DNA from: Candidatus Zipacnadum vermilionense
Lineage (GTDB): Bacteria > Armatimonadota > Zipacnadia > Zipacnadales > Zipacnadaceae
Reading direction: 5' to 3'
NCBI GenBank assembly: GCA_029821755.1
Contig: JALGSV010000007.1
Coordinates: 124,001 to 188,000 of the forward strand
DNA length: 64,000 nucleotides
How positions within the stretch are numbered: position 1 is the stretch's first letter; the number at the start of each line of letters is the position of its first letter. The notes beneath the pieces were generated by a model. That model was not told the origin of the DNA. It saw only the letters and a program-made list of their open reading frames with translations, and made no database searches. Shown here in pieces: positions 1,808 to 61,340 of this stretch. Both the position numbers and the translations under genes were made by a program.

Positions 1808-1862
1808 GGCACCGGCGTCTCGCCGGTGCTTCGTGTGGGGGCGGGCCTGCTAGCCCGCCCAG
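1808..1862 (+). repeat. Two adjacent palindromic REP-like hairpins
   Basis: A hairpin with arms CACCGGCG/CGCCGGTG is followed by GTGG and a second hairpin with arms GGCGGGC/GCCCGCC. Both read in plus orientation, the minority orientation among the GTRG-type repeats of this window. They lie between terminase and portal. Confidence 0.7.
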
Positions 1863-1948
1863 TTGGTAACAACCAGGCGGCGAACACACCTCGGGGCGCC
1901 GGTCATCGGCGCCCCGGGCCGCCTATCCGAGATGGAGGAGAAAGCAGC

Positions 1949-3199
1949 ATGTCCGAGTTGATGCTCAAAGCGTATGTGGTAGGCGGAGATGAGGGGGCCG
2001 GGCGGAGCCGGCAGTTGCCGGAAAGCGCCTGGGTGGAGGCCTATGCTAGCGGGGAGGTGATCGAGCCGCCGTATGATCTGGACGCGCTGGCGCAGTTGTA
2101 TGAGACCAATGCCGCGCACAAGGCTTGCGTGGACGCCAAAGTCACCAACTGCGTGGGCCTGGGGTATCGGTTTGTGCCGATGACCGACAACCCGCAGGGA
2201 GCCAACCGGGCAAACCTGGCCCTGCTGGAGCACCTTTTCGGTAACTGCAGTCCGGAGCAGACCTTCACAGAGGCGCTCGCGGGAGTGTGGACCGATGTGG
2301 AGTGCCTGGGCAACGGGTACCTGGAGATCACCCGCAACTCGCGCGGCGAGATCGACGGCTTTTACCACGTGCCGGGGACGACCATGCGGGTGCGCGGCGG
2401 CGGGCAGGGGTTCCTGCAGATCCGGGAGACCGAGCGGCGCTCCTTCCGGCCCCTGGGCGGGCCCGAGGAGGCCGACCCGGTCACCGGGGAGCCGCAGAAC
2501 GAGATCATGCACCTGAAGAAGTACACGCCCCAGTCCTCCTACTACGGCATCCCGGACATCGTGGCGGCGATGGCGGCGGTGGTGGGCGATAAAGAGGCGC
2601 GGGAGTACAATATCGACTTTTTCGAGAACCACGCCGTCCCCCGCATGGCGATTATCGTGGAGGGCGGACAACTCTCCGATGAGGTGCTGGCGCAAATCCA
2701 GGAGTACATGGAGACGGAGATTCGCGGCCAGGGGCACAAGACGCTCATCCTGGATGTGCCGGGCAGCGACGTGCGCATCCGCCTGGAGCCGCTGACAGTG
2801 GGCGTGCAGCAGGACGCGGCCTTCCTGGACTACCGCAAGGCCAACCGGGACGAGGTGCTGATGGTACACCGGGTGCCGCCCAGCAAGATCACCATTGTCG
2901 AGCACGCGAACCTGTCCAACTCGAAGGACCAGGACAAGACCTTCCGCGAGCAGGTGATCCGCCCGGAGCAGCGGCGGATCGAGTACCGGATCAACCGCAT
3001 GGTCCGGGAGGAGATGGGCATAGGCGACTGGCGCTTCCGCTTCGAGGAGATGGACTTGGCCGAGGCCCGCGAGGAGGCGGAGATAGCGAAGATCTACTCA
3101 GAGATAGGGGCGTGGACGGTGGAGGAGATAAGAGGGAGGCAAGGGCTGAGTACGGCAGGCACAACGGCCGGCACAGGGACAGGCCCAACGGCAGGCTGA
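1949..3199 (+). CDS. Phage portal protein
   Basis: This is the dodecameric head-vertex channel. The order of conserved segments matches PBSX/HK97-type portals: an early AHKACVDAKVTNCVG helix, ECLGNGYLEI, a HLKKYTPQSSYYGIPD loop, FFENHAVPRMAI, and a late VHRVPPSKI with the NLSNSKDQDKTF segment. The frame is open further upstream, but the ATG at 1949 has GGAGGAGAAAG in front and the upstream part contains intergenic repeats. The C-terminus ends in a Thr/Ala/Gly-rich tail encoded by a degenerate tandem repeat (3156-3199) that also occurs outside genes, so the tail looks repeat-derived. Confidence 0.92.
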   Translation: MSELMLKAYVVGGDEGAGRSRQLPESAWVEAYASGEVIEPPYDLDALAQLYETNAAHKACVDAKVTNCVGLGYRFVPMTDNPQGANRANLALLEHLFGNCSPEQTFTEALAGVWTDVECLGNGYLEITRNSRGEIDGFYHVPGTTMRVRGGGQGFLQIRETERRSFRPLGGPEEADPVTGEPQNEIMHLKKYTPQSSYYGIPDIVAAMAAVVGDKEAREYNIDFFENHAVPRMAIIVEGGQLSDEVLAQIQEYMETEIRGQGHKTLILDVPGSDVRIRLEPLTVGVQQDAAFLDYRKANRDEVLMVHRVPPSKITIVEHANLSNSKDQDKTFREQVIRPEQRRIEYRINRMVREEMGIGDWRFRFEEMDLAEAREEAEIAKIYSEIGAWTVEEIRGRQGLSTAGTTAGTGTGPTAG

Positions 3200-3222
3200 A
3201 CGACAGTGAGAACGGCAGGACG

Positions 3223-3252
3223 GGGCCGCGGGCGAGAGCTTGCGGCCCTTTT
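3223..3252 (+). terminator. Possible weak intrinsic terminator or attenuator
   Basis: A 7-bp stem GGGCCGC/GCGGCCC with a 12-nt loop is followed by TTTT, between portal and prohead protease. The stem is short, so partial read-through would be expected. Confidence 0.35.
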
Positions 3253-3284
3253 GCATGGCTGCGTTTTGGGAGGAACGACAACAG

Positions 3285-4118
3285 ATGCGATTTGACGGGA
3301 TTGCGAGCTCTACTGCCGTGGATCGCGAGGGCGAACAGATGACGACGGGGGCGTTGGAGGGGATGGTGCAGGTCGGCCCCGTCGAGCTGCGCGCAGGGCA
3401 TCGGGGAGAGAAGATCGGAGTCGTGGAGGAGTGCCGGCGGGAAGGGGAGAGACTGAGAGTGAAGGGGAGGCTGGAAGAGAAGAGCCCCCGGGCGCGGGCG
3501 CTGTGGGAGAGGCTGCGGCGGGGGGTGCGGATGGCCCTGAGCGTGGGCGGGCGCAAGCGCGTGGTGCGGCGGTATAGCCCCGTCGCCGGGCGGTATGTGC
3601 GGATGATTGAAGACGCCTCGCTGGAGCATGTGGCGGTGTGTGGGGAGGAGGAAGCCAGGAATGGGGAGACGGAGGTAGTCGCGAGCGGGGAGAGGGGAAC
3701 CTCACCCCCCGGCCCCCTCTCCCGCGCCTGCGGCTGGGGAGAGGGGGAGTCGAAGGTCGAAAGTGGCGGAGGGGGAGTGTTAGTCGGCAGTCGAGAGTGT
3801 CAGGGGGGAGATACCTCACCCCCTGGCCCCCTCTCCCGCGCCTGCGGCTGGGGAGAGGGGGAGTTGGGAGGGGAGTCTCACCCCCTGCCCTCTCTCGCGA
3901 CACCGCCGCCCCGAGGAGAAGAGGGGGAAGTGAGAAGGGCGGTAAGGCAGGAGCTTGCGGAAGCGGAAGCCTGTGCTTCCCATCCCGCTCGTTCCTCCGG
4001 CCCGTCGGCGGAGCCGGGGCGGAGACGGTCGCTGCTGGTGGGGAAGACGGGACGGACAAAGGAGCAAGTCAAGAGCTTGCGCAACGACAACGATGAACTC
4101 TGGAAGGGAGTGCTGTGA
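3285..4118 (+). CDS. Prohead maturation protease (XkdF/HK97 type), interrupted in frame by repeats
   Basis: The first part matches phage capsid proteases: FDGIASSTAVDREGEQMTTG near the start, RLRVKGRLEEKSP, VRMALSVGG and DASLEHVAVC. It presumably cleaves the capsid or scaffold during head assembly. The ATG at 3285 follows GGGAGGAA at 3268-3275; the longer open frame starts in a hairpin. From about residue 135 the reading frame runs through two full and one divergent copy of the class A repeat ([16 protein letters not shown] twice), adding roughly 80 Gly/Pro-rich residues, then returns to a charged tail that may act as scaffold. The stop is one base before the capsid gene's GTG. Confidence 0.82.
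   Translation: MRFDGIASSTAVDREGEQMTTGALEGMVQVGPVELRAGHRGEKIGVVEECRREGERLRVKGRLEEKSPRARALWERLRRGVRMALSVGGRKRVVRRYSPVAGRYVRMIEDASLEHVAVCGEEEARNGETEVVASGERGTSPPGPLSRACGWGEGESKVESGGGGVLVGSRECQGGDTSPPGPLSRACGWGEGELGGESHPLPSLATPPPRGEEGEVRRAVRQELAEAEACASHPARSSGPSAEPGRRRSLLVGKTGRTKEQVKSLRNDNDELWKGVL
3700..3749 (+). repeat. Class A hairpin repeat, translated
   Basis: This is a full-length class A copy: CCTCACC head, outer stem CCCCCTCTCCC/GGGGAGAGGGGG and the CGCGCCTGCGGCTG loop. It is read in frame inside the prohead protease. Confidence 0.9.
3814..3863 (+). repeat. Class A hairpin repeat, translated
   Basis: This is a second copy with the same loop and reading frame as the one at 3700, inside the same gene. 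Confidence 0.9.
3876..3928 (+). repeat. Divergent class A repeat, translated
   Basis: It keeps the CTCACCCCCTGCCC head and GAGGGGGAAG end, but has a different loop (GACACCGCCGCCCCGAGG). It lies directly after the second copy in the protease gene. Confidence 0.6.
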
Positions 4119-4119
4119 A

Positions 4120-4845: not shown

Positions 4846-5003
4846 CCTCACGGGAGAACCTGATCTTCGGCATCCAGCGGCGGGTGCGGATCGACCGGGA
4901 CCGGGACGTGCTGCGGGGCGTGAACGTGTACGTGATCTCCACGCGGATCTCGGTGGCGTTTGAGGACCCGGAGGCAGTGGTGATGGGAGTGAATGTCGGG
5001 TAG
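4749..5003 (+). CDS. Phage major capsid protein, 3' part after a frameshift
   Basis: The frame reads AGDAALSAGIAPPYMGVP from about 4707 and continues through VPLIPTNLDAVAPFAGEGDY, FLTSRENLIFGI and the terminal strand ISVAFEDPEAVVMGVNV. This is the usual C-terminal domain of the capsid fold. The ATG at 4749 is only the first start codon in the open frame; there is no ribosome site, so this is not thought to be a separate gene. It is either a sequencing/assembly error in the G run, a real inactivating deletion, or a -1 frameshift product. Confidence 0.75.
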   Translation: MGVPAVPVPLIPTNLDAVAPFAGEGDYSFGFLTSRENLIFGIQRRVRIDRDRDVLRGVNVYVISTRISVAFEDPEAVVMGVNVG

Positions 5004-5013
5004 GGGAGGAGAA

Positions 5014-5376
5014 CCTCACCCCCTGGCCCCCTCTCCCGCGCCTGCGGCTTGGGAGAGGGGGAAAGATGCCGCCGTGGCGAGCGGGGCCAGCCTGCTTCGT
5101 TCGAGCTGCACAGGACAGGACTTGAGGGGGCGGAGGCGGGGAGAGGGACGCAAAGGTTAGCGAACGGGCGGCTGGCGGGTGTGATCGCAGACGGCTGCGC
5201 GCGGAAGCCGCCCCCACGAGAGCGCGGGCTGGAAAGCCCGCGCCACGCGGAGCGACGGGCGAGGACGCCCGTCGTACCCGGAGGAGACATCGCCCCGAGG
5301 AGCGGTGCCGCCGGAAGCGAGGGGCGAGAACGCCCGTTGTACCTAGGGAGGCGGCGGGGGACATAGCCCCCGCCCT
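5014..5376 (+). repeat. Intergenic repeat cluster (class A plus four GTRG-type hairpins)
   Basis: This spacer of about 390 nt has no gene. It holds a class A copy (5014-5062, starting 10 nt after the capsid stop), a GCGGGC-stem REP ending CCACGCGGA (5219-5253), a GACGGGCG/CGCCCGTC hairpin ending GTAC (5258-5282), a related AGGGGCG/CGCCC hairpin (5315-5340) and a GGCGGGGG/CCCCCGCC hairpin ending CTAT (5350-5381). Confidence 0.8.
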
Positions 5377-5397
5377 ATAGCAGAGGGGATAGGTGCC

Positions 5398-8802: not shown

Positions 8803-8835
8803 GGAACGGCGGGACGGCGGCGGGGGAGAGGGGAA

Positions 8836-9035
8836 CCTCACCCCCCGGCCCCCTCTCCCGCGCCTGCGGCTTGGGAGAGGGGGAGGAGAGGGGATCGGCG
8901 GGGACACCGGTCTGGAGAACGGTGCCACTAGGGTCGGTGTGTTGGCCGTGAGCTAGGGCGGGCGGGAGGCCCGCGCCACGCGGAGGGGAGGCAGGACCTC
9001 GCCACCCCGCACCGGCGAGACGTCGGTGCCACCGG
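8836..9035 (+). repeat. Intergenic repeat cluster
   Basis: It contains a class A copy (8836-8885), an ACACCGGTC/AACGGTGCCAC hairpin (8908-8932), a degenerate GCGGGAGGCCCGC REP ending CCACGCGGA (about 8956-8983) and a CACCGGCGAGACGTCGGTG hairpin ending CCAC (9009-9033). The last one runs directly into the GGAAGGAG ribosome site of the next gene. Confidence 0.75.
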
Positions 9036-9745: not shown

Positions 9746-9825
9746 TCCGCGTGGGGCGGGCTTCCAGCCCGCCCTCGGAGGCGCATGTTCACGGGAGGGC
9801 GGGCTGGAAGCCCGCCCCACGCGGA
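9746..9825 (+). repeat. Inverted pair of REPs (BIME-like)
   Basis: TCCGCGTGGGGCGGGCTTCC with its palindromic partner is followed 20 nt later by its inverted copy ending CCCCACGCGGA. The 80-bp unit has the same layout as the pairs flanking the RAYT gene. Its right end overlaps the ribosome site of the next gene. Confidence 0.9.
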
Positions 9826-10389: not shown

Positions 10390-10570
10390 CCTCACCCCCC
10401 AGCCCCCTCTCCCGCGCCTGCGGCTGGGGAGAGGGGGAGCCAGAGGGAGGGGACACCGCTCTGGCGAGCGGTGCCACTGGGGGCAAAGGAACGTACCAGA
10501 GTGGCAGGAGGGGCGGGCGCGGACGCCCGCCACCGCTGCGCAGAGCACAGACTAGAAAGCCTGTGGTACC
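10390..10570 (+). repeat. Intergenic repeat cluster
   Basis: It contains class A (10390-10439, 10 nt after a stop), an ACACCGCTCTGGCGAGCGGTG hairpin ending CCAC (10452-10477), a GGCGGGCG/CGCCCGCC hairpin ending CCAC (about 10510-10534) and a degenerate AGGCT-type hairpin ending GTACCGG (10549-10571). The last runs straight into GGAGGAGAG and the start codon at 10582. Confidence 0.75.
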
Positions 10571-12964: not shown

Positions 12965-13104
12965 CGGCAGGCAGGACGACAGGCACGGAGGCAGGCGCAG
13001 GGACAGGCACAACGTCAGGGAAGGGAGCGCGGGCTAGAAGGCCCGCGCCACGCGGAGAGAGCTTGCGCCATACGGAACACCGGCGAGAAGCTGGTGCCAC
13101 CGGG
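12964..13104 (+). repeat. Degenerate GGCAGGCAC repeat plus two REP-like hairpins
   Basis: It contains tandem GACAGGCAC-like words (12964-13019), a CGCGGGCTAGAAGGCCCGCG REP ending CCACGCGGA (13023-13056) and a CACCGGCGAGAAGCTGGTG hairpin ending CCAC (13078-13101). The last hairpin is followed at once by GGGAGGGG and the start at 13113. Confidence 0.75.
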
Positions 13105-15952: not shown

Positions 15953-16008
15953 CCTCACCCCCCTGCCCCCTCTCTGGGCGCAGACGCCCTGGGCAGGAGA
16001 GGGGGGAG
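15953..16008 (+). repeat. Class A repeat with alternative loop
   Basis: It starts 5 nt after the stop of the 944-residue protein. The apical part is TGGGCGCAGACGCCCTGGG rather than the common loop. It separates two ORFs that are in the same frame. Confidence 0.85.
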
Positions 16009-16040
16009 GAGAGAGATCGTGGTTCGGGAGGAATCTGACA

Positions 16041-16340: not shown

Positions 16341-16552
16341 ACGGCAGGCACGACAACAGGCACAGAGGCAGGCACAGAGGCAGGGGGACCGGCGAGGAGT
16401 CTGGGGCACCGGAGGAAGCAGACCCCTGACCGCCCCGCGACGGGCGAGGACGCCCGTCGTACCGGAGAGGGTGCGGGCGGAGGTTGCGCGCGGGGAAGCG
16501 CTTACACTCCGGCCCGACGGGACGGCGGGGGACGTAGCCCCCGCCCTACAGG
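16340..16552 (+). repeat. Intergenic repeat cluster
   Basis: It contains GGCAGGCAC-like tandem words (16340-16384), a GACGGGCGAGGACGCCCGTC hairpin ending GTACCGG (16437-16462) and a GGCGGGGGACGTAGCCCCCGCC hairpin ending CTAC (16520-16548). The last one adjoins the GGGAGAGAGG site of the next gene. Confidence 0.75.
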
Positions 16553-19227: not shown

Positions 19228-19391
19228 CGGGACACCGCTCGGGAGAGCGGTGCCACTGGGGGACGGCTGGTTCTGGTTCATTGAGGTGAACAAGGCCCGC
19301 GCTACCGCGCGGGCCTTGTTCACTTTTAGATGGCGGGCTGGAAGCCCGCCCCACGTAGAGGAGCCACAGGCTTGGAAGCCTGGGCTACCCA
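19228..19391 (+). repeat. REP-like hairpins around a terminator
   Basis: It contains a CACCGCTCGGGAGAGCGGTG hairpin ending CCAC (19230-19256), a GGCGGGCTGGAAGCCCGCC REP ending CCACGTAGA (19332-19362) and an AGGCTTGGAAGCCT hairpin ending CTACCCAG (19368-19391). Confidence 0.75.
19286..19327 (+). terminator. Strong intrinsic terminator inside the tail region
   Basis: A perfect 16-bp stem starts GTGAACAAGGCC and closes GGCCTTGTTCAC around a CTACCG loop, and is followed by TTTT. It lies between the 73-residue ORF and the fibre-like gene, so the lysis/fibre genes may need their own promoter or antitermination. Confidence 0.8.
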
Positions 19392-20104: not shown

Positions 20105-20143
20105 CCTCACCCCCTGCCCCCTCTCCTTGCAGGAGAGGGGGAG
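20105..20143 (+). repeat. Class A repeat, short-loop form
   Basis: It starts 4 nt after the preceding stop and has the TCCTTGCAGGA apical part. Confidence 0.9.
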
Positions 20144-20185
20144 AGGAGAGGGCAGCGGGGATGATTGCCGTACCGGGGAGGAAGC

Positions 20186-21224: not shown

Positions 21225-21375
21225 CCTCACCCCCTGCGCACGCGGACGTGCGCTTCCCCCTCTCCCGCGCCTGCGGCTGGGGAGAGGGGGAGCGAGGACA
21301 ACGCCACCGCGGGGCGTCGGCGAGAGGAGTCATGCCTCACCCCCCCCTGCGTTCTCCCCCTGCAGGGAGAGGGAG
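21225..21375 (+). repeat. Two class A repeats, one with a double apical module
   Basis: The first (21225-21291) starts one base after the holin stop and carries an extra GCGCACGCGGACGTGCGC hairpin before the common loop. The second (21335-21375) has a short CCCTGCAGGG loop and ends 25 nt before the amidase start. Confidence 0.85.
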
Positions 21376-27040: not shown

Positions 27041-27154
27041 GGTAGGGAGGCTCCTGTCGTAAGTGTGAGGGCAGTATAAGGGGTCAAGGGGCAGGGGGCA
27101 AGGGGGGGGCGGTGTGAGCCCTGGTTGTCGGCAAGCGATGGCCGGCAAGTTGCA

Positions 27155-27205
27155 CCTCACCCCCCCAGCCGCCTCTCCCGCGCCTGCGGCTGGGGAGAGG
27201 GGGAG
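27155..27205 (+). repeat. Class A repeat between minus-strand genes
   Basis: It has the common loop. It is the only class A copy within the minus-strand gene block (26.5-36.8 kb) and is still in the plus orientation. Confidence 0.85.
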
Positions 27206-27380
27206 TATCTGTCCCGAAGCGCCGGGGATCGCTCTCGGTCTTGCTTCTCTTGCCGAAAGACACAGGTCACACCCGGGGGGAGGGGAGGCGAGACGTGTAA
27301 GGCGGAAGGTGGAACGTGAAGGCCGGGAGGTGGGGAGAGGGCGGGGAGCCGAGGGTGCTCCCCGCCCGGGAGTAGTGAGG

Positions 27381-37224: not shown

Positions 37225-38201
37225 GGAGGGGAGCGCCGCCCTGCACTGGCAAGGCGCTGGCACCGCCCGGCTTCGCTGAAGCTACACAGGGCAGGCCGGG
37301 GACGCAGGCTGGGAAGCCTGCGCTACCCAGACGATTTGGGTTTCACGTCTCCATCGCCGGCGGGATAGGCCGCGTCTTGGAGCGGGTGGTGGAGAGGCAC
37401 TGTACGACGGCGCAGATGTTCACCTCCTCGCCCTCGCAGTGGCGGACGGTCCCGGTAGATCCCGAGGAAGCAGCGGCACTAAGGGAGGGGCTGGCGGCAG
37501 CGGACATCCGGCCGCATTTCGTTCATGCCATCTACCTACTGAATCTGGCCTCGCCGGATAAGGAGCTGTGGCGGCGGAGTGTGCGGCACTTGGCGGAGGA
37601 GCTGCGGCGAGCGGTGCTGGTGGGGGCGGCGGGAGTGGTGCTCCACCTGGGGTCGGTAGGCGAGGGCGGAAGGGCGTGGGACGGCGTACGGCGGGTGGCG
37701 AAGGCCCTGCGGGAGGTGCGGGAGCGGGCCCAGGTAGCCCTGCCGCTGATCCTGGAGAACAGCGCCGGGGCGGGCTACACGCTGGGGGGGACGCCGGAGC
37801 AGATCGGGGAGATGATGGCGCTGGCGGAATCGGCGGAGCCGCTGTGGCTGTGCCTGGATACGGCGCACTCATTCGCGGCGGGCCTGTCGGTGCACACGGC
37901 GGAGGGGCTGGAGGAGGTCCTGGGGCGGGTGGTAGCGGCACTGGGGCCGGAGCGGCTGGGCGTGCTCCACCTGAACGACAGCCGCTATGAATTCGGCACG
38001 CACCGCGACCGGCACTGGCATATCGGGAAGGGATGTATCGGGAGAGAAGGCCTGGCGAGGATAGTGAACCATCCGCGCCTGAAGGGGCTGCCGATGATCA
38101 TGGAGACGCCGGGGACGGTGGAGGAGGACCGGAGGAATATGTTCGTGGTGCGGAGGATGCTGCCGGGTGAGGAGAGGTGGAAGCTGCGGCGTCGGCGGTG
38201 A
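37221..38201 (+). CDS. nfo: Endonuclease IV (AP endonuclease) with repeat-derived N-terminus
   Basis: This is a TIM-barrel AP endonuclease that cleaves DNA 5' of abasic sites with three metals. Family motifs are FGFHVSIAGGIG (H42), FVHAIYLLNLASP, LHLGS, ILENSAGAG, WLCLDTAHSFAAG, LHLNDSRYEFGTHRDRHWHI and IMETPG. Family members normally start about two residues before the GxHVSIAGG strand. Here there is no usable start codon there, and the frame extends 37 residues upstream through a palindromic repeat (37299-37329) to a GTG that overlaps the previous stop. The first 38 residues are therefore probably repeat-derived. Confidence 0.9.
   Translation: MRRGAPPCTGKALAPPGFAEATQGRPGTQAGKPALPRRFGFHVSIAGGIGRVLERVVERHCTTAQMFTSSPSQWRTVPVDPEEAAALREGLAAADIRPHFVHAIYLLNLASPDKELWRRSVRHLAEELRRAVLVGAAGVVLHLGSVGEGGRAWDGVRRVAKALREVRERAQVALPLILENSAGAGYTLGGTPEQIGEMMALAESAEPLWLCLDTAHSFAAGLSVHTAEGLEEVLGRVVAALGPERLGVLHLNDSRYEFGTHRDRHWHIGKGCIGREGLARIVNHPRLKGLPMIMETPGTVEEDRRNMFVVRRMLPGEERWKLRRRR
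37299..37329 (+). repeat. GCAGGCTGGGAAGCCTGC hairpin, translated
   Basis: The hairpin ends CTACCCAG. On the minus strand it reads GTAG followed by the hairpin. It encodes part of the unusual N-terminus of endonuclease IV. Confidence 0.85.
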
Positions 38202-39374: not shown

Positions 39375-41459
39375 ATGCGTAGGCTCTGGTTACTGATGCT
39401 CGTGATGGGGGCGATGCTCATGGGAGATCTTCTCGCGGTCTCGGCGGCTGATTTCTTTGTGTCGCCCGGCGGTAGTGACCGGAATCGGGGGTCGCAGGAG
39501 CGGCCCTTTCGGACGCTGGAGCGGGGGCGGAATGCGGTGCGGGCGCTGAAGCGGCGGGAGGGATTGCCACCGGGCGGGGTGACGGTGTGGGTCCGGGGAG
39601 GGGACTATGAACTGGCCGACAGCTTCGTCCTGACCGCGCAGGACAGCGGAACGGCTCAGGCGCCGGTGGTGTACCGGGCGTGGCCGGGGGAGGTAGCGCG
39701 ACTGGTGGGCGGGCGGCAGGTGACGACCTGGGAGCCGGTGCGCGAGGCGGCGATCCGGGCGCGGCTGCCGGAGGTGGCGCGGGGGAAGGTGCGGGTGGCG
39801 GACCTGGCGGGAGTGGGGATTGCCGACTATGGGCGGCTGACCTCGCGAGGCTTCGGGCGGCCGGTGTCGCCGGCGCACCTGGAGCTATTCTGTGGCGGTC
39901 GGCCGATGATCCTGGCGCGCTGGCCCAATGAGGGCTTTGTCAAGATCGCGGCCATCCCGCAGGCGCACAAGGACGAGCACGGCGGGGACCTGGGGGACCT
40001 GAAAGACGGGTTCCTCTATGAGGGCGACCAGCCGGCGGGGTGGAAGAACACCGGAGATATTTGGGTGCATGGGTACTGGGCGTGGGATTGGGCGAACTCG
40101 TACGAGCGCGTCGAGTCGCTAGATACGGCGACCCGGCTGATAAGGACCGCGCCGCCCTATGGGTTGTACGGCTTCCGGGCGGGGCAGAGGTACTACTTCC
40201 TGAACGTGCTGGAGGAACTGGACAGCCCGGGAGAGTACTGGGTGGATCGGGAGGCGGGGAAGATGTACTTCTGGGAGCCGGAGGGAGAAGTCGCGAGTGG
40301 GGAGGGGGACGCAGGCTTGGAAGCCTGCGCTACCGGGAGGGAGGTGTGGGTGTCGGTGCTGGAGGAGGCGCTGGTGTCGCTCCAAGGGGCGGAGTACGTT
40401 ACGCTGCAGGGGGTGACGCTGGAGTACGCGCGGGGGAATGGGGTGGAGATGAGCGGGAGTAGCCACTGCCGGCTGGTGGGGTGTACCGTGCGGAACCTGG
40501 GGGATTGGGGGGTGCGGATTGCCGGAGGGGTGGAGAGTGGGTTGGAGGGGTGCAACCTGTACCAGTTGGGCGACGGCGGGGTGTATCTGGAGGGCGGGGA
40601 TCGCCGGACGCTGACGCCGGGCGAGCATTTCGTGATCAACTGCGACATCCACGACATGGGGCGCTGGAGCAAGTGCTACCAGTCGGGGATCCTGGCCTAC
40701 GGGGTGGGGCATCACCTGGCCCACAACCACATTCACCACGGCCCGCACAACGGCATCCTCATCCACGGCAACGACTACCTGATCGAGTACAACGAACTGG
40801 ACCACCTGTGCCTGGAGACGGGCGACGTGGGGGCTTTCTACCTCGGGCGGGACTACACTGAGCGCGGGAACGTGGTGCGGTACAACTACTTCCACGACCT
40901 GGGGGGGATGGGCCTGGGCTCGATGGGGGTCTACCTGGACGACTGCGCGAGCGGGATAACGGTCTTCGGGAACGTCTTCTACAAGCTGCAGCGCGGGGTG
41001 TTCATCGGGGGCGGGCGGGATAATGTGGTGGAGAACAACATCTTTGTGGAGTGCAAGCCCTCGGTGGCGATTGACGGGCGGGGGCTGGATAAGAGCCCGG
41101 TCTGGCACAACATGGTCTACCAGACGATGAAGCAGCGGCTGGAGGAGATGAACTGGACGCAGCCGCCCTACAGCGCGCGCTACCCGGAGCTGGCGGGTCT
41201 GGCGAAGTACTACGCGACCGACGAGGGGATTCCGCCGGAGGGTAACGTGGTGCGGCGGAATATTTCGGTGGACGGCCCCTGGCTGGAGATCTACTGGCAC
41301 GCGACGCCGGAGATGGTGCAGGTGGGGAACAACCTGGTGGACGTGGACCCGAAGTTTGTAGATAAGGAGAAGGGGGATTTCCGTTTGAGGGAGGATTCAC
41401 CGGCGTGGAAGGTGGGGTGGGAGGCGATTCCTAACCGTGAGATTGGGATCGAGAGATGA
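39375..41459 (+). CDS. Secreted right-handed parallel beta-helix protein
   Basis: The 694-residue product has a signal peptide (RLWLLMLVMGAMLMGDLLAV). The start of the mature protein (FFVSPGGSDRNRGSQERPF, then RTLERGRNAVRAL) is typical of pectate-lyase-like or DUF1565-type helices. From about residue 340 the coils are clear (GAEYVTLQGVTLEYARGNGV, HCRLVGCTVRNLGDWGVRIA, HNHIHHGPHNGILIHGNDYL, NVVRYNYFHDLGGMG). It probably acts on extracellular polysaccharide. A palindromic repeat at 40307-40334 is translated in frame (GDAGLEACATGR) between the N-terminal sandwich and the helix. GGGGAGGGGGG precedes the ATG. Confidence 0.85.
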   Translation: MRRLWLLMLVMGAMLMGDLLAVSAADFFVSPGGSDRNRGSQERPFRTLERGRNAVRALKRREGLPPGGVTVWVRGGDYELADSFVLTAQDSGTAQAPVVYRAWPGEVARLVGGRQVTTWEPVREAAIRARLPEVARGKVRVADLAGVGIADYGRLTSRGFGRPVSPAHLELFCGGRPMILARWPNEGFVKIAAIPQAHKDEHGGDLGDLKDGFLYEGDQPAGWKNTGDIWVHGYWAWDWANSYERVESLDTATRLIRTAPPYGLYGFRAGQRYYFLNVLEELDSPGEYWVDREAGKMYFWEPEGEVASGEGDAGLEACATGREVWVSVLEEALVSLQGAEYVTLQGVTLEYARGNGVEMSGSSHCRLVGCTVRNLGDWGVRIAGGVESGLEGCNLYQLGDGGVYLEGGDRRTLTPGEHFVINCDIHDMGRWSKCYQSGILAYGVGHHLAHNHIHHGPHNGILIHGNDYLIEYNELDHLCLETGDVGAFYLGRDYTERGNVVRYNYFHDLGGMGLGSMGVYLDDCASGITVFGNVFYKLQRGVFIGGGRDNVVENNIFVECKPSVAIDGRGLDKSPVWHNMVYQTMKQRLEEMNWTQPPYSARYPELAGLAKYYATDEGIPPEGNVVRRNISVDGPWLEIYWHATPEMVQVGNNLVDVDPKFVDKEKGDFRLREDSPAWKVGWEAIPNREIGIER
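40307..40334 (+). repeat. GCAGGCTTGGAAGCCTGC hairpin, translated
   Basis: The hairpin ends CTACCGGG. On the minus strand it reads GTAG plus hairpin. It is inserted in frame in the beta-helix gene. Confidence 0.85.
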
Positions 41460-41470: not shown

Positions 41471-41666
41471 ACACCGCTCTGGAGAGCGGTGCGACTGTCG
41501 TGGTAACTCCAGCGGTGGGCGCGGGCGGATGTTGCGCGCTCGTGCCGAGCGCGCAACATCCGCCCCTACGGGAGGAAAGCACGGGCGAGACGCCCGTCGT
41601 ACCGGGAGGAGAGCACCGGCGAGACGCCGGTGCCACCGCGACAGAGGCTGGGAAGCTTGTGCTACC
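41471..41666 (+). repeat. Cassette of five different REP-like hairpins
   Basis: In order: CACCGCTCTGGAGAGCGGTG ending CGAC (41471-41494); a 20-bp-arm hairpin GGGCGGATGTTGCGCGCTCG ending CTAC (41523-41569); ACGGGCGAGACGCCCGT ending GTACCGG (41580-41604); CACCGGCGAGACGCCGGTG ending CCAC (41613-41638); and AGGCTGGGAAGCTT ending CTACCGAG (41644-41666). All share one orientation. The last abuts the GAGGAG ribosome site of the next gene. Confidence 0.88.
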
Positions 41667-47316: not shown

Positions 47317-47390
47317 CCTGCGCAGGAAAAAGGGGACAGGTACGGTTTCCGCCGCAGGAAATCGCGCCTGTCCCCTTTTTCCTGCGCAGG
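47317..47390. repeat. 24-bp-arm inverted repeat with A/T tracts
   Basis: Perfect arms run from CCTGCGCAGGAAAAAGGGG at the left to CCCCTTTTTCCTGCGCAGG at the right, each continuing through GACAGG/CCTGTC. A partial inner hairpin (GGTTTCC/GGAAA) is in the loop. The AAAAA and TTTTT tracts could also make it a bidirectional terminator. Confidence 0.85.
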
Positions 47391-50899: not shown

Positions 50900-50985
50900 C
50901 CTCACCCCCCCTCTCCTGGCAGGAGAGGGGGGATACATAAGAAGAATCCCGGCCCCGGTGGCACTGGCGTCTCGCCGCTGCGGGG
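50900..50985 (+). repeat. Class A repeat and a plus-oriented REP-like hairpin
   Basis: Class A short-loop form (50900-50932) starts 7 nt after a stop. At 50957-50983, GTGG is followed by a CACTGGCGTCTCGCCGCTG hairpin in plus orientation. Confidence 0.75.
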
Positions 50986-51025: not shown

Positions 51026-52570
51026 ATGCAAGACAACTCCCTCATCCGCCAGACGATGGTGAATCTCCATCTCGCCAGCCGCTATGCCGACTACACGCCC
51101 AACTTCCGCGTCGAGGAATTCCAGCCCGGAGCCTGGTGGGTGCTGGACGGCGCGACGCGCGTGGGATCGGTGCAGGCGGAGAGCGGCTTCCTGGAGCTGG
51201 TCAACTTCGATCCACATGCGCCGCGGCCGGTGGAGTTCCCCGAGGTCTACCATGCGCCCACCGCGCCGGGGGATCGGATCCCCCTGGCGAACTGGGTGAA
51301 GTGGAACCAAGAGACGACCAGCGAGCGGAACGAGCTGACCTTCTCGGGTGGCGGGGAGACGCTGACGGTGCAGTTCGAGGAATGGTTCGCTGGGGAGCCT
51401 CACCCCCCTGCCCCCCTCTCCATGCAGGAGAGGGGGAGGCGGATGCATGCGGTCAAGACCTGCACCTTCGCGGTGGACGCGGACCTGGGGTACGTGGTGC
51501 AGGTGGAGAGCCACGTCCAGTCGCCGGTGTCGCATCAGGTGGAGTTCGCCAACTTCCTGCCGGAGCACGTGGTGGACGACCGACTGCAGCGTTGGCCCTT
51601 CGTGCTGTGGCAGCATCCCGACGGGCGGATTCTGCGCTGGAACCAGAACAACGCCGGGGCCGAGGCCTATGGGAACCGCGACCATCACGGCCTGCGGCAG
51701 ATCGACCCGGAGGGCTTTTTCGGTTTCTTCGGGGAGAAGGACCGCTGCCCGGTGGCGGAGTTCCGCGGGGCGAACATGCCGATCGCGGCGGCCACCTGCG
51801 CCAACATGCTCGACGAGCACCTGCATTGGGTGGTGGGGCGCGACTTTGAGCCGCCACAAGACGAGGCGGGACTGTACACCTACGACGTGGCCTTCACGCT
51901 GGCCTCGCTGCCGGGGGAGGTGGGGGCGAAGCTGGCGGAGGGAGCGGAGCTCAATGACCTCATCCTGGAGCGCTATCCGAGCGAGATGGCGGGAAGGTAC
52001 CCCTGGACGCGGGGCGAGACCGGGCCGGTGCGGCCGCTGGACCATGTGGTGTTTCGGCAGGGCACTACCTGCGACTTCACTGAACGTCTCGACCCGTGCG
52101 CCTCGGACCGCAACCAGTGCTTCCTGTGCCCGGATGACGACGAGACGGCGCCGGTCAGTATTCTGTCGGCGGGCGGGCGTCTCACCGCCCCCTGCCTGCG
52201 GGTGCAAACCAGCGGGGCCTCACCCCCTGCCCCCTCTCCTTGCAGGAGAGGGGGTAAGAAGGTTAGCGCTGGTCCGCAGCACGGGACCTCACTGCACGTC
52301 ACCGAGGGAGCGACCTACGAGGTGACCGCGTGGATCAAGACGGACCTGAGCGAGGGCGAGGCGCAGTTGCGGGTATGGGAGTGGTGCTTCACGCCACGAA
52401 ACCTGACGAAGGAGTACCTGTCCGTCCCGGTGAGCGGCAAGTCGGAGTGGACCAAGGTAGCGGTGGAGTTCACCCCGCAGGGGCCCATGACCCACTGCCT
52501 CTGCCCGGAAATCGTGGTAGAGGGCGAGGGGACCGTGTGGGTGGATGAGATGGTGGTACGGCAGGCCTAA
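51026..52570 (+). CDS. Carbohydrate-binding-like protein of unknown activity, with two translated repeats
   Basis: It encodes 514 residues. The first 350 are not recognised (YADYTPNFRVEEFQPGAWWV; HWVVGRDFEPPQDEAGLYTY). The C-terminal 110 (TYEVTAWIKTDLSEGEAQLR, SEWTKVAVEFTPQGPMTH, TVWVDEMVVRQA) resemble a CBM of the CenC/CBM4-9 jelly-roll type. Two class A repeats are read in frame: residues 125-138 (EPHPPAPLSMQERGRR region) and 398-410 (SPPAPSPCRRGGKK region), each in a different reading frame of the repeat. The protein stays intact on both sides. No signal peptide is seen. Confidence 0.65.
   Translation: MQDNSLIRQTMVNLHLASRYADYTPNFRVEEFQPGAWWVLDGATRVGSVQAESGFLELVNFDPHAPRPVEFPEVYHAPTAPGDRIPLANWVKWNQETTSERNELTFSGGGETLTVQFEEWFAGEPHPPAPLSMQERGRRMHAVKTCTFAVDADLGYVVQVESHVQSPVSHQVEFANFLPEHVVDDRLQRWPFVLWQHPDGRILRWNQNNAGAEAYGNRDHHGLRQIDPEGFFGFFGEKDRCPVAEFRGANMPIAAATCANMLDEHLHWVVGRDFEPPQDEAGLYTYDVAFTLASLPGEVGAKLAEGAELNDLILERYPSEMAGRYPWTRGETGPVRPLDHVVFRQGTTCDFTERLDPCASDRNQCFLCPDDDETAPVSILSAGGRLTAPCLRVQTSGASPPAPSPCRRGGKKVSAGPQHGTSLHVTEGATYEVTAWIKTDLSEGEAQLRVWEWCFTPRNLTKEYLSVPVSGKSEWTKVAVEFTPQGPMTHCLCPEIVVEGEGTVWVDEMVVRQA
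51398..51437 (+). repeat. Class A repeat, translated
   Basis: It has the short CCATGCAGG loop and is read in frame inside the 514-residue protein. Confidence 0.9.
52218..52253 (+). repeat. Class A repeat, translated
   Basis: It has the short CCTTGCAGG loop and is read in a different frame from the copy at 51398, just before the CBM-like domain. Confidence 0.9.
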
Positions 52571-52632: not shown

Positions 52633-54504
52633 ATGACCTGGAAGCCCGTGCTGACGGAGGCCCTGCTGGAAGGCCAGGCCGGCGTTGATCTGAAGTCGTT
52701 TCTGTTGGAGCAGATTCCCCCGTTTGTGGCGCCCACCGACCCAGAGACCTGGTCGGCGGAGGCGCGGGTGCTGCGGGAGCAGGCGCGGCGGGAAGTGTTC
52801 CTTCGAGGCTATCCCCGCAAGGCCGTCCAGTCCCCGCCGCGAGTGGTCTGGGGCGAGGTCCTGCAGCCCTGCCCGGAGTACTGTATCCGCAAGGTCCGCT
52901 ATGAGTGTTACCCCGGCTACTGGATTCCGGCGCTGCTGTATGAGCCGGCGCGGCTGGAGGGGCGCATGCCGGTGATGCTCAACCCCAACGGGCACCACAC
53001 CGGCGGTAAGGCGGCCGGGTACAAGCAGATCCGCTGCGCCAACCTCGCCCGCCGCGGGGTGTTGGCGTTGAACATGGAGTTCATCGGGATGGGGGAGCTG
53101 GAGGCCGACCGCTACCACGGCGGGCAGGCGATGCTGAACCTCACCGGCCTATCCGGGGTGGGGCTGTTCTACTTGGCGCTGCAGAAGGGCCTGGATGTGC
53201 TCTTGCAGCACTCCCACGCCGACCCTGAGCGGGTGGGGGTGACGGGCCTGTCCGGCGGCGGCTGGCAGACCATCGTCATCTCTGCCCTGGACGAACGGGT
53301 CACTCTGAGCGTGCCGGTGGCGGGGTATACCTCGATGCGCGGGCGGGTGGAGTGCGCCCTGCCGAACGACATCGGCGACCTAGAGCAGTGCCCGGTGGAC
53401 CTGACCACGGTCCTCGACTACCAGCTGATGACGGCAATGCTGGCGCCCCGGCCGGTGCTGCAGATCCTCAACGAGACGGACGACTGCTGCTTTGCGACCC
53501 CGCGGACCCGGCCGGTGATCTACGACGCTCTCCAGCCGACCTGGGAGGCCTTCGGCGCGGGCGAGCGTTTCCAGTTCCACAGCAACTTCGACCCCGGGAC
53601 GCACAACTACGAGGCAGACAACCGAGCGGCGCTGTACCGCTTCCTCAGGGAGCAGTGGGGCCTGCCCGGCCCGGCGCGGGACACGCATCGCGAGCGGGAG
53701 GTGCTGCCTGAGGGGCAGTTACGGGTGGGCCTGCCGTTGGACCAGGCGACCATGCAGACGCTGGCGGTCCGCCGGGCGCGACGACTGGGCCAGCAACGGC
53801 AAAGCCTGCGGACGGCCGCCGAGCGGCGGGACCTGCGCCGGCGCCTGCGGGAGGTCCTGCGGCTACCGGAGTTCCCCCTCGCCTCGCTCCCGACTGGCTT
53901 CGCCACCCGCGGCGGCGTGCTGGCGGCCGGTCCCTGGAGCCTCCCCGTCTCCGTCTCCCGGCAGACGAAGGCCACGGGAACGGAGCTGGTCCTGGGCGAC
54001 GGCGGACGCGCGGGCCTCGGGCCGCTCCCCGCCGGCCACCCGCGAGCCGCCCGGCGCTTTATGGCTGACCTGCTGGGCACCGGGGAAAACGCCTGCGGTT
54101 GGCAAATGGAGATGCTGGTGGAGACCGTCGGGCAGCGGGTGCTGGGGCACCAGGTGGCACAGACGCTGGCCCTGGCGCGGGCAGTGGCCGCCGCGACCGG
54201 CGCGGAACGCGTGCGGCTGGTGACGCATGGTACCCGCACCGGAGTGGTGGGCCTGCTAGCCGCGGCCCTGGAGCCGGGGCTGTTCGAGGCACTGCTCTCG
54301 TACAACAACATTGCCTCACTGATATCCCTACTGGAAACCGGTGAGCGCTGCGAGACGCTGCCGGCGCTGTACTGCTTTGGCCTGCTGGAGGTGGCCGATC
54401 TGCCGGAGCTGACGGCGCTGCTGGAGCACGTCCGCTACGGCCAGCCCTCGCGCGCGGTGCCGTGTCTCCTGGGGTGTCGCGCGGGTCGCGTTCCGCACGG
54501 GTAG
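52633..54504 (+). CDS. Alpha/beta hydrolase (acetyl xylan esterase-like), long form
   Basis: The product has 623 residues. An N-terminal esterase half has the nucleophile motif GLSGGGW (S207), the oxyanion region NPNGHHTGGKAAGY, an acid in NETDDCC and a GTHNYE histidine, as in large acetyl-xylan-esterase-like proteins. The second half (from about residue 400) looks like a second, degenerate alpha/beta domain without a clear nucleophile (VRLVTHGTRTGVVGLLAAAL). The stop TAG is the TAG of a GTAG tetranucleotide that starts a REP-like hairpin at 54501, and the last 15 residues are low in conservation, so the natural C-terminus may have been replaced. ATG at 52633 follows GGCGAGGAGAG. Confidence 0.8.
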   Translation: MTWKPVLTEALLEGQAGVDLKSFLLEQIPPFVAPTDPETWSAEARVLREQARREVFLRGYPRKAVQSPPRVVWGEVLQPCPEYCIRKVRYECYPGYWIPALLYEPARLEGRMPVMLNPNGHHTGGKAAGYKQIRCANLARRGVLALNMEFIGMGELEADRYHGGQAMLNLTGLSGVGLFYLALQKGLDVLLQHSHADPERVGVTGLSGGGWQTIVISALDERVTLSVPVAGYTSMRGRVECALPNDIGDLEQCPVDLTTVLDYQLMTAMLAPRPVLQILNETDDCCFATPRTRPVIYDALQPTWEAFGAGERFQFHSNFDPGTHNYEADNRAALYRFLREQWGLPGPARDTHREREVLPEGQLRVGLPLDQATMQTLAVRRARRLGQQRQSLRTAAERRDLRRRLREVLRLPEFPLASLPTGFATRGGVLAAGPWSLPVSVSRQTKATGTELVLGDGGRAGLGPLPAGHPRAARRFMADLLGTGENACGWQMEMLVETVGQRVLGHQVAQTLALARAVAAATGAERVRLVTHGTRTGVVGLLAAALEPGLFEALLSYNNIASLISLLETGERCETLPALYCFGLLEVADLPELTALLEHVRYGQPSRAVPCLLGCRAGRVPHG

Positions 54505-54656
54505 GGGCGGATGCTGGGCGCTCGGCACGAGCGTACAACATCCGCCCGCGGGCGCGGAGAACAAACCGGAAGACGCGCCGATCCGCGACAATCCGGACGG
54601 TTCGCCGTAGTCGCGGGCGGATATTCCACCGCGGACGGTGGAGTATCCGTCCCTAC
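54501..54656 (+). repeat. Two REP-like hairpins of the GGGCGGAT class
   Basis: The first (54501-54547) is in plus orientation: GTAG then GGGCGGATG with a decayed partner CATCCGCCC. The second (54615-54656) is in the opposite sense, GGGCGGATATTCCACCG with GGTGGAGTATCCGTCCC, ending CTAC. No gene lies between. Confidence 0.75.
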
Positions 54657-55759: not shown

Positions 55760-55765
55760 GCGGCT

Positions 55766-56602: not shown

Positions 56603-56655
56603 GAGTACAACACAGAGGTAGTGTAGCATGGACGGTGAGGGGGTGCCAGTCGGTG

Positions 56656-56718: not shown

Positions 56719-56833
56719 TTCGGAGCCGCCTACGAGGTTGCCCGGAGCCTCCCGGCGAATAGCAGCAGGGGGGCAGGCGGCTGGGCACAGGCCAGAAAGC
56801 TTGTGCGCCTCTGCACACCCATAAGGAGCCAAC

Positions 56834-58573: not shown

Positions 58574-58593
58574 GGTCGGGGTGGGCCATCCGG

Positions 58594-58672
58594 TCCGCGT
58601 GGGGCGGGCTTTCTAGCCCGCCCTCAGCGGCTGCTACGGGGAGCGCGGGCTAGAAAGCCCGCGCCACGCGGA
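58594..58672 (+). repeat. Inverted REP pair upstream of the RAYT gene
   Basis: TCCGCGTGGGGCGGGC with its AGCCCGCCC partner is followed 19 nt later by CGCGGGCTAGAAAGCCCGCG and CCACGCGGA. Both ends are complementary (TCCGCGTGG/CCACGCGGA), so the whole 79 bp is one imperfect palindrome. It ends at the ribosome site of the RAYT gene. Confidence 0.92.
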
Positions 58673-58685
58673 GGGAAGGGTGCAC

Positions 58686-59183
58686 ATGTCCGAGCATCCC
58701 GGTTTTACCCCCTTGGGGGAGTTTGAGCGACGCAAGCGCCGTTTGCCCCACTGGGAGTCGCCTGACGAGGCCTACTTCATTACCTTCCGCCTCAGGGATC
58801 GCTCCGTAGTCGATCTGACCAGTCCCCCGATTGCGGCCATCATCATCGAGGCCCTGCGGTTCTTCCACGATAGACGGTACACTCTCTGGGACCACACGAT
58901 CATGCCGGATCACGTGCATCTGATCATCAAGCCGCTGGTGAAACGCGGGCTAACAATGCGTCTGGGGCACATTCTGCAGGGCCTCAAAGGCTGGACAGCG
59001 AGACAGATCAACTCGCACCTGGGGCGGCGGGGGCCATTGTGGCAGGACGAAAGGCACGACCACATCGTCCGCAACCAGAAGGACTACGTCGAAAAGGCTG
59101 CATACATCCTGGACAATCCGCGACGTGCGGGCCTGGTCAAAGACTCGACGGAGTGGCCGTGGTGGTCGGTGGGGGTGGAGTGA
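58686..59183 (+). CDS. REP-associated tyrosine transposase (RAYT, Y1/HUH type)
   Basis: The product has 165 residues. The HUH motif is MPDHVHLI (H76, H78) and the Y1 tyrosine region is KAAYILDNP (Y140; Y134 is the alternative). RLRDRSVV, GGPLWQDERHDHIVRN-type sequence (here GPLWQDERHDHI) and WPWWS at the end are usual RAYT features. It would cut and rejoin single-stranded REP DNA at the hairpin base. It is flanked on both sides by inverted REP pairs, the typical REP-RAYT-REP layout. ATG at 58686 follows GGAGGGAAGGG; GTG at 58680 overlaps that site. Confidence 0.92.
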   Translation: MSEHPGFTPLGEFERRKRRLPHWESPDEAYFITFRLRDRSVVDLTSPPIAAIIIEALRFFHDRRYTLWDHTIMPDHVHLIIKPLVKRGLTMRLGHILQGLKGWTARQINSHLGRRGPLWQDERHDHIVRNQKDYVEKAAYILDNPRRAGLVKDSTEWPWWSVGVE

Positions 59184-59210
59184 CGCGTCGTGTCGCCTGA
59201 TGGACCTCAG

Positions 59211-59285
59211 CGTGGGGCGGGCCTTCTAGCCCGCCCTCAGCAGCTGCTGCGGGGAGCGCGGGCTAGAAGGCCCGCGCCACGCGGA
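59211..59285 (+). repeat. Inverted REP pair downstream of the RAYT gene
   Basis: The layout matches the upstream pair: CGTGGGGCGGGCCTTCTAGC, a 20-nt CTCAGCAGCTGCTGCGGGGA middle, then the inverted copy ending CCACGCGGA. The hairpin arms differ from the upstream pair by a single compensated-looking C/G versus T/A change (CCTTCTAG vs CTTTCTAG). Confidence 0.92.
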
Positions 59286-59307
59286 TCCCGGCCCGGCCCG
59301 TGCGGAC

Positions 59308-59463
59308 CTACTTCCCCCTCCCCAGCCACGCCAGCAGCTTGACTGCCGCCTGTTGCCAGCCCTCCGTTTCCCAAAAGGCGGTTTTTCCCGCCGGGGCCTC
59401 GCCGTAAGCGGTGCCCAGGACGTACACTACCCGCCCCACGCGACGGAAGGGGTCGCCGCGCCC
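59308..59463 (-). pseudogene. Orphan C-terminal fragment in frame with the upstream gene's stop
   Basis: On the minus strand, immediately after the stop of the next gene and in the same frame, 51 codons read RVVYVLGTAYGEAPAGKT, AFWETEGWQQAAVKLLAW and then TAG. The sequence resembles the C-terminus of the protein at 61352-63238 (VVAVMTGLCYGEREGNLVPF, WEWPGWPEWL). It has no start codon or ribosome site. It is probably the remnant of a paralogous gene; TAG read-through is the less likely alternative. Confidence 0.55.
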
Positions 59464-61221
59464 CTACTCGAACTCCGCCACCACGACAGTCCACACCGTC
59501 ACCGAGGGGATAGTCACCGATCCGTCGGCGGCGGGCGTAACCGGGATTGCGTCGCCCGGCACATCCGGCGACATGGCGGCGATCTTGCTCAGTTTCATCC
59601 CGGCCGGAACGGTGAAGGCCACCCGGACGTTCTCCGCCGGAGCCGGGGGCTGGTCGGCCCAGCCGTCGTCGTCATTCTCCGGCATGTTCAGCAGGTGGAC
59701 GATGGTCCGCTTGCCACCGTCGGGCAGGTCGCGAGCGTTGACGAAGTCCTCCCACCAGACCCGCTCCGGACCGGTCACCGTGACGGCCTCGGCGCCGGGC
59801 CGTACATAGCGTAGGTCACAGTCCCACAAGTATTCCGACCAGCGGAACTCGAAGCGCCGGTAGTTAGGCCAGTTGTCCGGGTCGCCCCAGCCGTCAATCT
59901 GCACGCCGCTGGCTGAGGCCACTGCCTCCAGGTAGCGGTTGCTCCCCATCCAGCCAGCGTGGGAGAACCCACCGCGCCGGCGAATGGGCACGCACTCCTG
60001 CTGCAGGTAGAAGGCGGCTTTCTTCCAGGGGTGGTAGACGCTGGCGGGGTTGCCGGCCGAGTTGAAGTGCTCGTAGAGGCTGTAGGCGCCGGGCAGCATC
60101 ATGTCCTCCTCGGTCTCGCTGTTGTACATCTGTGGGTAGCCGCCGGCCACGTTGTTCCAGCCAAAGAGGAAGTCGGGGAAGCGTTTGGTCAGCTCCGTGC
60201 GGAGCTTGCGGACGAACTGAGTATTGGCCGCCGCGGGGTCCTTGAGCTCCTCCAGCTTGCCGGTCACGTCGTAACCGCCGACAACGCCGGGCGTACCATC
60301 GCTGCGGAAGCCGTCCCAGTTGAACATCTCCTTGGAGCGGGAGACTTCGTCGATCCAGAAATCCCCCACTACCTGCTTGGAGGGGAGGAAGGAGCCGGTC
60401 GTGATGCCGCCGGGGGTGTGCGGGTCCTGCAACTCCGGCTGGTAACGGTCCTTGGTGAGCTGGTCCACGTCGAACCAGGCGTTGGGGCGACCCGCCTTGT
60501 TGTAGGTCAGCCACTCGGGATGACGGCGGGCGAAATCGAAGCCGACAGGCCCGTAGGAGAAATACTGGATGTAGGTCACCACCGCCATGCCGTTTTCATG
60601 GGCACGCTGGACCATGTATTGCCAATCGCTCTTGCCCTCGGGGTACCAGCCCTGCCCGGAGCGCCACGTCTCGCTGTCGGGGGTCATGTCGTCGAACGGG
60701 GAGGGCATGTTGGAGTAGGCCTCCAGACAGGTGACGTAGGCCTTACGGTGTTTGGGGAGAAGCGAGTTGTCGATCTGCCCGTTCTCCTTCGCGCCGCGTA
60801 TGCTGAACAAGGTGAGGTAGTGGCCCACCTCCCAGGGGTTCTTGCCGACGGTGAAGAATTCGTGGCCGCTGACCGCCTCCGCCCCGGACTCGGCCACATG
60901 AGCGATCACCTCATGCCCCCACTTGCGGTCGGCGGGGACGGGGTAGGTGAAAGTAGTAGTCGCCTGGCCCTGGGCCGGGACGGTGAGGGTCTGGGGGGTC
61001 AGGTCATCACGGCCCTCCAGGCCATACAGCACGGCCATGGTCACGGCGGCGTCCACCGCGGCCTCGCCGGAGTTGGCTACGTCGACCGCAAACCGCGCCG
61101 TCTCGCCGGGCTGGTAGCAGATCTTCTCCGGCCAGACTCGAGTAACGGTGAGATCGCCGCACCAGGCCGGCAGGGCCAGGGCGAGCAGGAGAAGGCTCAG
61201 GGCCAGATGGTGTTTGCGCAT
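59464..61221 (-). CDS. Secreted TIM-barrel glycosidase-like protein
   Basis: The 585-residue product has a signal peptide (LALSLLLLALALPAWCGD). An N-terminal CARDB/Ig-like domain (RVWPEKICYQPGETARFAVD) precedes a barrel (YVTCLEAYSNMPSPFDDMTP, AHENGMAVVTYIQYFSYGPV, WIDEVSRSKEMFNWDGFRSD, FLFGWNNVAGGYPQMYN) and a C-terminal beta sandwich (RTIVHLLNMPENDD, SVTIPSVTVWTVVVAEFE). The layout recalls GH66/GH13-like enzymes; D in FRSDGTPG is a possible catalytic residue. Substrate is unknown. AAAGGACA is 8 nt before the ATG. Confidence 0.7.
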   Translation of the reverse strand: MRKHHLALSLLLLALALPAWCGDLTVTRVWPEKICYQPGETARFAVDVANSGEAAVDAAVTMAVLYGLEGRDDLTPQTLTVPAQGQATTTFTYPVPADRKWGHEVIAHVAESGAEAVSGHEFFTVGKNPWEVGHYLTLFSIRGAKENGQIDNSLLPKHRKAYVTCLEAYSNMPSPFDDMTPDSETWRSGQGWYPEGKSDWQYMVQRAHENGMAVVTYIQYFSYGPVGFDFARRHPEWLTYNKAGRPNAWFDVDQLTKDRYQPELQDPHTPGGITTGSFLPSKQVVGDFWIDEVSRSKEMFNWDGFRSDGTPGVVGGYDVTGKLEELKDPAAANTQFVRKLRTELTKRFPDFLFGWNNVAGGYPQMYNSETEEDMMLPGAYSLYEHFNSAGNPASVYHPWKKAAFYLQQECVPIRRRGGFSHAGWMGSNRYLEAVASASGVQIDGWGDPDNWPNYRRFEFRWSEYLWDCDLRYVRPGAEAVTVTGPERVWWEDFVNARDLPDGGKRTIVHLLNMPENDDDGWADQPPAPAENVRVAFTVPAGMKLSKIAAMSPDVPGDAIPVTPAADGSVTIPSVTVWTVVVAEFE

Positions 61222-61262
61222 GGTGGTTGTCCTTTCGTGAGTCATGCGGGCGCCGGGTTCGT

Positions 61263-61340
61263 TCCGCGTGGCGCGGGCTTTCTAGCCCGCGTTCCCTGGC
61301 CGGCCGCCGAGGGCGGGCTAGAAAGCCCGCCCCACGCGGA
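61263..61340 (+). repeat. Inverted REP pair, reversed composition
   Basis: TCCGCGTGGCGCGGGCTTTC leads to a 20-nt spacer and the GGCGGGCTAGAAAGCCCGCC hairpin ending CCACGCGGA. The two hairpin types appear in the opposite order from the pairs at the RAYT gene. Confidence 0.9.

Follow-up and report, generated by a model that had tools for sequence, protein, structure and literature searches.

A RAYT gene and REPs of several classes in the window

The window analysed here, a 64,000-nt stretch of the Candidatus Zipacnadum vermilionense genome (C71:124001-188000; the genome is a 4.39-Mb draft in 115 contigs, 95% complete), carries a gene for a REP-associated tyrosine transposase (RAYT) together with many repetitive extragenic palindromic elements (REPs). 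REPs are small hairpins whose foot carries a guide tetranucleotide of the GTRG type, and RAYTs are HUH transposases that act on single-stranded DNA. The RAYT gene (58686..59183, + strand) encodes 165 aa with the HUH motif PDHVHL, and its product scores 93.2 bits against NF047646 (REP_Tyr_transpos; cut-off 80), lies just under the PF01797 threshold (22.4 versus 23 bits) and is a weakly similar sequence homologue of Escherichia coli TnpA_REP (PDB 4er8; E=7e-6). Searching named genomes with this protein returned only distant cyanobacterial relatives (35-39% identity). The gene sits between two REPINs (convergent REP pairs) of its cognate class A, and is thus flanked by inverted REPs: on the 5' side (58599..58667), A1 (+, GTGG-GGCGGGCT) converges with A2 (-, GTGG-CGCGGGCT), and a second A1/A2 REPIN lies 3' of the gene (59212..59280). 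We interpret the hairpins of the window as REPs from about ten families that exist side by side, each most likely propagated by a RAYT of its own, a reading to which we assign a probability of roughly 0.86.

Perfect hairpins were listed, each read on both strands, and about 29 were counted in the window, compared with the more than 30 copies of the original prediction. Class A, with loop TTCT or TCC, is also represented by REPINs at 9751..9820 (A1/A1) and 61268..61335 (A2/A1) and by single REPs at 1835..1860 (+, GTGG) and 13028..13051 (-, A2). Class B (GTGG-CACCGGCG, loop TCT) occurs at 1806..1828 (+), where its guide has degenerated to GCGG. Class D (GTAC-GACGGGCG, loop TCT or TCCT) is found at 5254..5277 (-, loop TCCT), with an A2 REP head-to-tail downstream (5223..5246, -), and at 16439..16462 (-, GTAC). 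Class E (GTAG-GGCGGGGG, loop CTACGT) is present at 16524..16549 (-) and, with loop CTATGT and guide ATAG (5375-5378), at 5353..5378 (-). Class F (GTGG-CACCGCTC) lies at 10454..10477 (-) and 19233..19256 (-), and class C (GTAG-CGCAGGCT, with the variant C', GTAG-CACAGGCT; loop TCCA) at 37303..37326 and 40310..40333 (both -). The long-stemmed class G (GTAG-GGGCGGAT) is represented at 54501..54547 (+, GTAG-GGGCGGATGCTGGGCGCTCG). An A1 REP and an adjoining degenerate class C REP share one orientation at 19332..19388 (-); adjoining them is a perfect 17-bp hairpin, GTGAACAAGGCCCGCGC (19286-19323). At 41472..41636 (-), four classes form a mosaic in a single orientation: F (41472-41495, guide GTCG at 41492-41495), G with its long stem (41523-41569), D (41580-41602) and B (41614-41636). 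Class K (GTAG-CGCAGGCG, loop TCT) is a further class of the genome. Reading each REP as a 4-nt guide plus stem, the stem is 8 bp long in every one of these classes except G.

The guide tetranucleotide directly adjoins the stem

Guide enrichment was measured in two samples of the genome, and orientations and neighbours were counted in about 1.26 Mb of genome stretches, with stem classes additionally sought by genome-wide pattern searches. In 438 kb, the four bases at the stem foot were GTGG in 40 cases (2.6 expected) and GTAG in 20 (1.3 expected). In 868 kb, GT[AG][GC] stood at the foot of 144 of 337 hairpins, versus 34-65 at eleven offset controls, and a block-shuffled control gave 147.5 hairpins, 21 of them with a guide. 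Hairpins of at least 7 bp followed GTGG 100 times and GTAG 89 times per 10,000 occurrences, versus 19-34 times for most other tetranucleotides. Choosing copies genome-wide by stem alone gave the same picture, with GTGG preceding 47 of 54 class B stems and GTAC or GTGC preceding about 19 of 25 class D stems, and the same patterns read backwards matched nothing. The guide is therefore a real tag directly adjoining the stem, as had been predicted, and it is far commoner there than base composition, offsets or shuffling would give. The view of GTAG, GTGG and GTAC as one shared guide word holds for this enrichment but not for interchangeability, because guides are class-specific: GTGG in A, B and F, GTAG in C, K, E and G, and GTAC in D. 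The loop side also keeps a fixed relation to the guide.

These are short, multi-copy palindromes with a GT(A/G)G guide 5' of the stem, D deviating with GTAC. The 206 copies in the 1.26 Mb are mostly intergenic (36 of 206 lie inside called genes, at a coding fraction of 0.82), and perfect stems number 54 for B, 39 for C/C' and 25 for D genome-wide.

Stem similarity follows RAYT relatedness

The genome holds six RAYT genes, one of which has decayed while the other five keep open reading frames. A search with Pfam Y1_Tnp gave five loci, and an alignment of those five recovered the sixth. The NF047646 cut-off is also passed by the proteins of L001 and L020:120-608, and that of L020:1992-2534 falls just under it (74 versus 80). 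Each RAYT locus has a distinct stem class beside it. Class A belongs to the RAYT at L061; the L062 RAYT lies between inverted C' REPs (stem class C/C'); the L064 RAYT adjoins a class K array; the L059 RAYT adjoins GTAG-GGGCGGCG; the decayed L063 RAYT, with internal stops, adjoins GTAG-GGGTGCGG; and the L060 RAYT lies between GGAG-GGGCCGCATGGG repeats. A REP-RAYT association is thus found for A, C, K and the L059, L063 and GGAG classes, in agreement with the prediction of REP-like, RAYT-made elements. Beside the C63 RAYT, about seven REPs of class K stand in tandem (L105:9624-9810), and around the L059 RAYT lie GGCGGGCGGCGCAGGCGCCTCTCGGGATCCTCC-like units in tandem and GGCAGATGGGGCAGGC hairpins in pairs (L020:1-60, 660-850).

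In a tree of 41 RAYTs, one clade (support 100/99) unites the RAYTs of A, C and K with a relative's GTAG-CGCAAGCT RAYT, L059 and L063 form another (98/95), and all GGAG-flanked RAYTs, including L060, make up a third (98/95). RAYTs with GTAG-GGCGNNG-GCTTGTA stems, from a congener and other relatives, form a clade of their own (100/100), which is likely the source type of class E. Stem distance tracks RAYT tree distance (Mantel test, p = 0.004; after merging identical stems, p = 0.014), so that stem class and RAYT clade are correlated, and of the two origins proposed at the outset it is the one invoking several RAYTs that agrees with these data.

The stems were originally described as unrelated and fully exchanged, which is too strong: a single base-pair step connects C with each of A2, C' and K, two such steps each separate B from K and from D, and the apex GGCG-TCT-CGCC is common to K, B and D. 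The A2-to-C step has a G.T intermediate, GTAG-CGCGGGCT-TCCA-AGCCTGCG, in which the 5' arm CGCGGGCT and the 3' arm AGCCTGCG leave one G.T pair.

Several REP families, each with its own RAYT, would be expected to share one hairpin design. By analogy with TnpA_REP, the RAYT would bind the single-stranded guide and stem-loop and cut nearby flanking DNA; the guide would be conserved through its role in cleavage, and the stem would diverge together with the RAYT via compensated base-pair changes as duplicated or exchanged RAYTs gain new REPs beside them.

Convergent pairs join members of one family

Taking as neighbours REPs within 60 nt, with the K array left out of the tandem count, we found 32 convergent pairs within families plus two that the script had binned as mixed but whose guides and loops assign them to class E. 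Tandem neighbours showed the reverse composition (17 between families, one within a family), and there were no divergent neighbours (Fisher p = 1e-10 for architecture by family). The 26 convergent class A pairs have spacers mostly of 18-25 nt, the near-fixed inverted spacing characteristic of REPINs and of bacterial interspersed mosaic elements. Convergent same-family pairs thus fit REPINs, and the REPIN is probably the mobile unit. Tandem mosaics often share spacers containing CTCC, which may represent the insertion context.

Unpaired REPs are oriented with the GC skew

On C71, unpaired REPs of all families lie on the + strand at about 64-126 kb and almost all on the - strand at about 129-215 kb, switching where the GC skew changes sign. 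The rule that positive skew goes with the minus strand is obeyed by 109 unpaired REPs and broken by 24 (p = 9e-14); collapsed to clusters the counts are 87 versus 19, and outside C71 they are 61 versus 12. In 20 further stretches, fetched after the rule had been stated and centred on B, C and D copies, 44 of 52 conformed. Families without a RAYT in this genome are more biased (61:7) than those with one (48:17; p = 0.024), and the bias was alike in imperfect and perfect copies.

We take the skew at third codon positions to track replication, since its coding-strand part is only -0.014. Two observations make the G-rich strand the probable leading strand, although only 54% of genes lie on it: it carries the RNA polymerase and ribosomal L2 genes, and about 14 kb from dnaA the skew changes from negative to positive. 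If so, the guide strand is the leading-strand template, the opposite of what plain insertion into the lagging-strand template, as reported for IS608 and ISDra2 (PMC6006769), would lead one to expect. Gene direction was rejected as the cause of REP orientation, which follows the skew in both ++ and -- gene contexts (at negative skew the + strand holds 14 of 19 and 26 of 31 REPs, respectively). Availability of the target word was likewise rejected as sole cause, CTCC being only 1.41 times commoner on the C-rich strand.

One reading of the bias, which we put forward tentatively and hold to be possible rather than probable, is that RAYT action leaves a footprint on the replication strands. Unpaired REPs would survive mainly with the guide strand on the C-rich strand, unexposed as lagging-strand template, exposed copies would be cut and lost, and single REPs would be stabilised half-REPINs. 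Convergent REPINs, keeping one arm in each orientation, would remain mobile. In the literature searched, whose scope excludes Ton-Hoang 2012 and Gomez 2014, we found no earlier report of a replication-strand bias of REPs.

The C71 skew reversal itself is sharp (third-position skew from -0.22 to +0.41 over about 124-129 kb, or window positions of about 1-5 kb) and origin-like, and it adjoins a phage portal gene (window 1949-3199). A different contig, however, carries dnaA (C83:19209), close to a further change of the skew from negative to positive.

Orphan families and alternative origins

Several observations on the orphan classes weigh against assigning every family its own RAYT. No RAYT stands beside B, D, E or F in this genome, and class D, although present in 16 of the 41 genomes searched, adjoined no RAYT in any locus read. 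Its GTAC guide is known from published work as a laboratory variant that abolished cleavage by the Stenotrophomonas maltophilia enzyme in vitro, and GTAC redirected the Marinomonas enzyme to GA/GT sites (PMC8266576). Class D flanks lack the GA/GT site that the guide model predicts and are CTCC-like, as in the other classes; those of class A (GTGG) are CTCC-like on both sides, compatible with CC. Covariation of guide and cleavage site across classes is thus unsupported for GTAC. Given the loss of cleavage with GTAC, class D may be immobile or served by another enzyme. The guide is GTAC throughout the family and mostly GTGC in another family of the order, and class D looks less ordinary than the rest, an old, sparse, low-copy GTAC/GTGC-tagged family spanning the order. 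Class B has 47 GTGG copies here, is absent from 38 of the 41 genomes and never flanks a RAYT in the loci read. We regard B, D, E and F as probably the leftovers of RAYTs that were lost or not assembled.

It is also conceivable, if rather unlikely, that clade I RAYTs in this genome mobilise the orphans B, D and F in trans, since the 8-bp stem length is common to them (and K, B and D have the apex in common as well). In favour of this, B is abundant here and rare in relatives, so it has spread recently although no B-flanked RAYT turned up. That B never flanks a RAYT, that its own RAYT may be missing from a 95% complete assembly, and that D is old and low-copy all speak against such mobilisation. 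A single RAYT with relaxed stem recognition, the other origin originally proposed for what was called a combinatorial hairpin superfamily, would account for the common stem length, the relatedness of the stems and the mixed REP flanks of some relatives' RAYTs (L076, L079 and L085). It is improbable in view of the six RAYTs, which span three deep clades and each have a class of their own alongside, of families never mixed in convergent pairs and of stem similarity that tracks RAYT relatedness; relaxed recognition has no support beyond the two near-identical partner stems of each RAYT (A1/A2, C/C'). Slightly less plausible still are intrinsic terminators or mRNA-stability elements shaped by transcription, with the guide incidental. 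REPs are known to act on RNA and these hairpins are mostly intergenic, but an Rfam search matched none of them, their loop side is constant with respect to the guide, and unpaired copies orient by replication skew independently of flanking gene strand.

Comparison with known REP systems

Multi-family, GTRG-tagged REPs with several RAYTs are established in Stenotrophomonas and Pseudomonas (Nunvar 2010, PMC2817692; Nunvar 2013, PMC3686654) and across bacteria (Di Nocera 2013, PMC3733652; Quentin 2018; PMC6006769). The premise that known REPs have one or a few stem types was too narrow, up to about eleven classes having been published for one Stenotrophomonas strain (PMC3686654). The Stenotrophomonas systems (SM1-SM13, SMAGs; PMC2817692, PMC3686654) resemble this one in placing GTRG immediately beside 8-9 perfectly paired bases and in having several classes per genome, RAYTs flanked by inverted REPs, RAYT-less classes, a stem "orthoswitch" and hybrid clusters. 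This genome differs in its six RAYTs, versus a maximum of four there (PMC3686654), its GTAC/GTGC-tagged family, the strict rule of same-family convergent and different-family tandem neighbours, and the replication-strand bias of single REPs. With the GTAG superfamily (PMC3733652) it shares the tag, mostly 6-9 bp stems, coexisting families and GTGG variants; GTAC is absent from the text of that report, and families were sorted there by sequence, whereas the present ones are linked to RAYT clades. In relatives, clade II RAYTs come with GTRG-GA-GCGACA or GTRG-GA-GGGGCA, like the Pseudomonas-type REPs of SBW25 (GTGG-GA-GGGGGC...), and no REPs of that type were found beside the RAYTs of this genome. 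E. coli REP stems are bulged; those here are perfect.

These results extend the one-RAYT-one-REP rule to a lineage with six RAYTs, in which stem families can be seen to separate along with their RAYTs, one compensated base pair at a time. If the strand bias is general, it would offer a genome-readable test of RAYT action on the single strands of replication forks, which for REPs has been approached mainly in vitro so far; the bias and the class D guide most deserve specialist attention.

Other repeats in the window

An inverted repeat, CCTGCGCAGGAAAAAGGGGACAGG, with 34-nt arms lies at 47317-47390 and resembles repeats flanking REP-less Y1 transposases of relatives (L073, L088, L104), a transposase type that was not found in this genome. 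A second abundant palindromic repeat, TCACCCCCTGCCCCCTCTCC...GGAGAGGGGG, has no GT guide and no strong strand bias (79 versus 58), with copies at 8819-8902, 15955-16016, 20107-20164, 21255-21291, 27148-27210, 50906-50932, 51412-51436 and 52230-52254.

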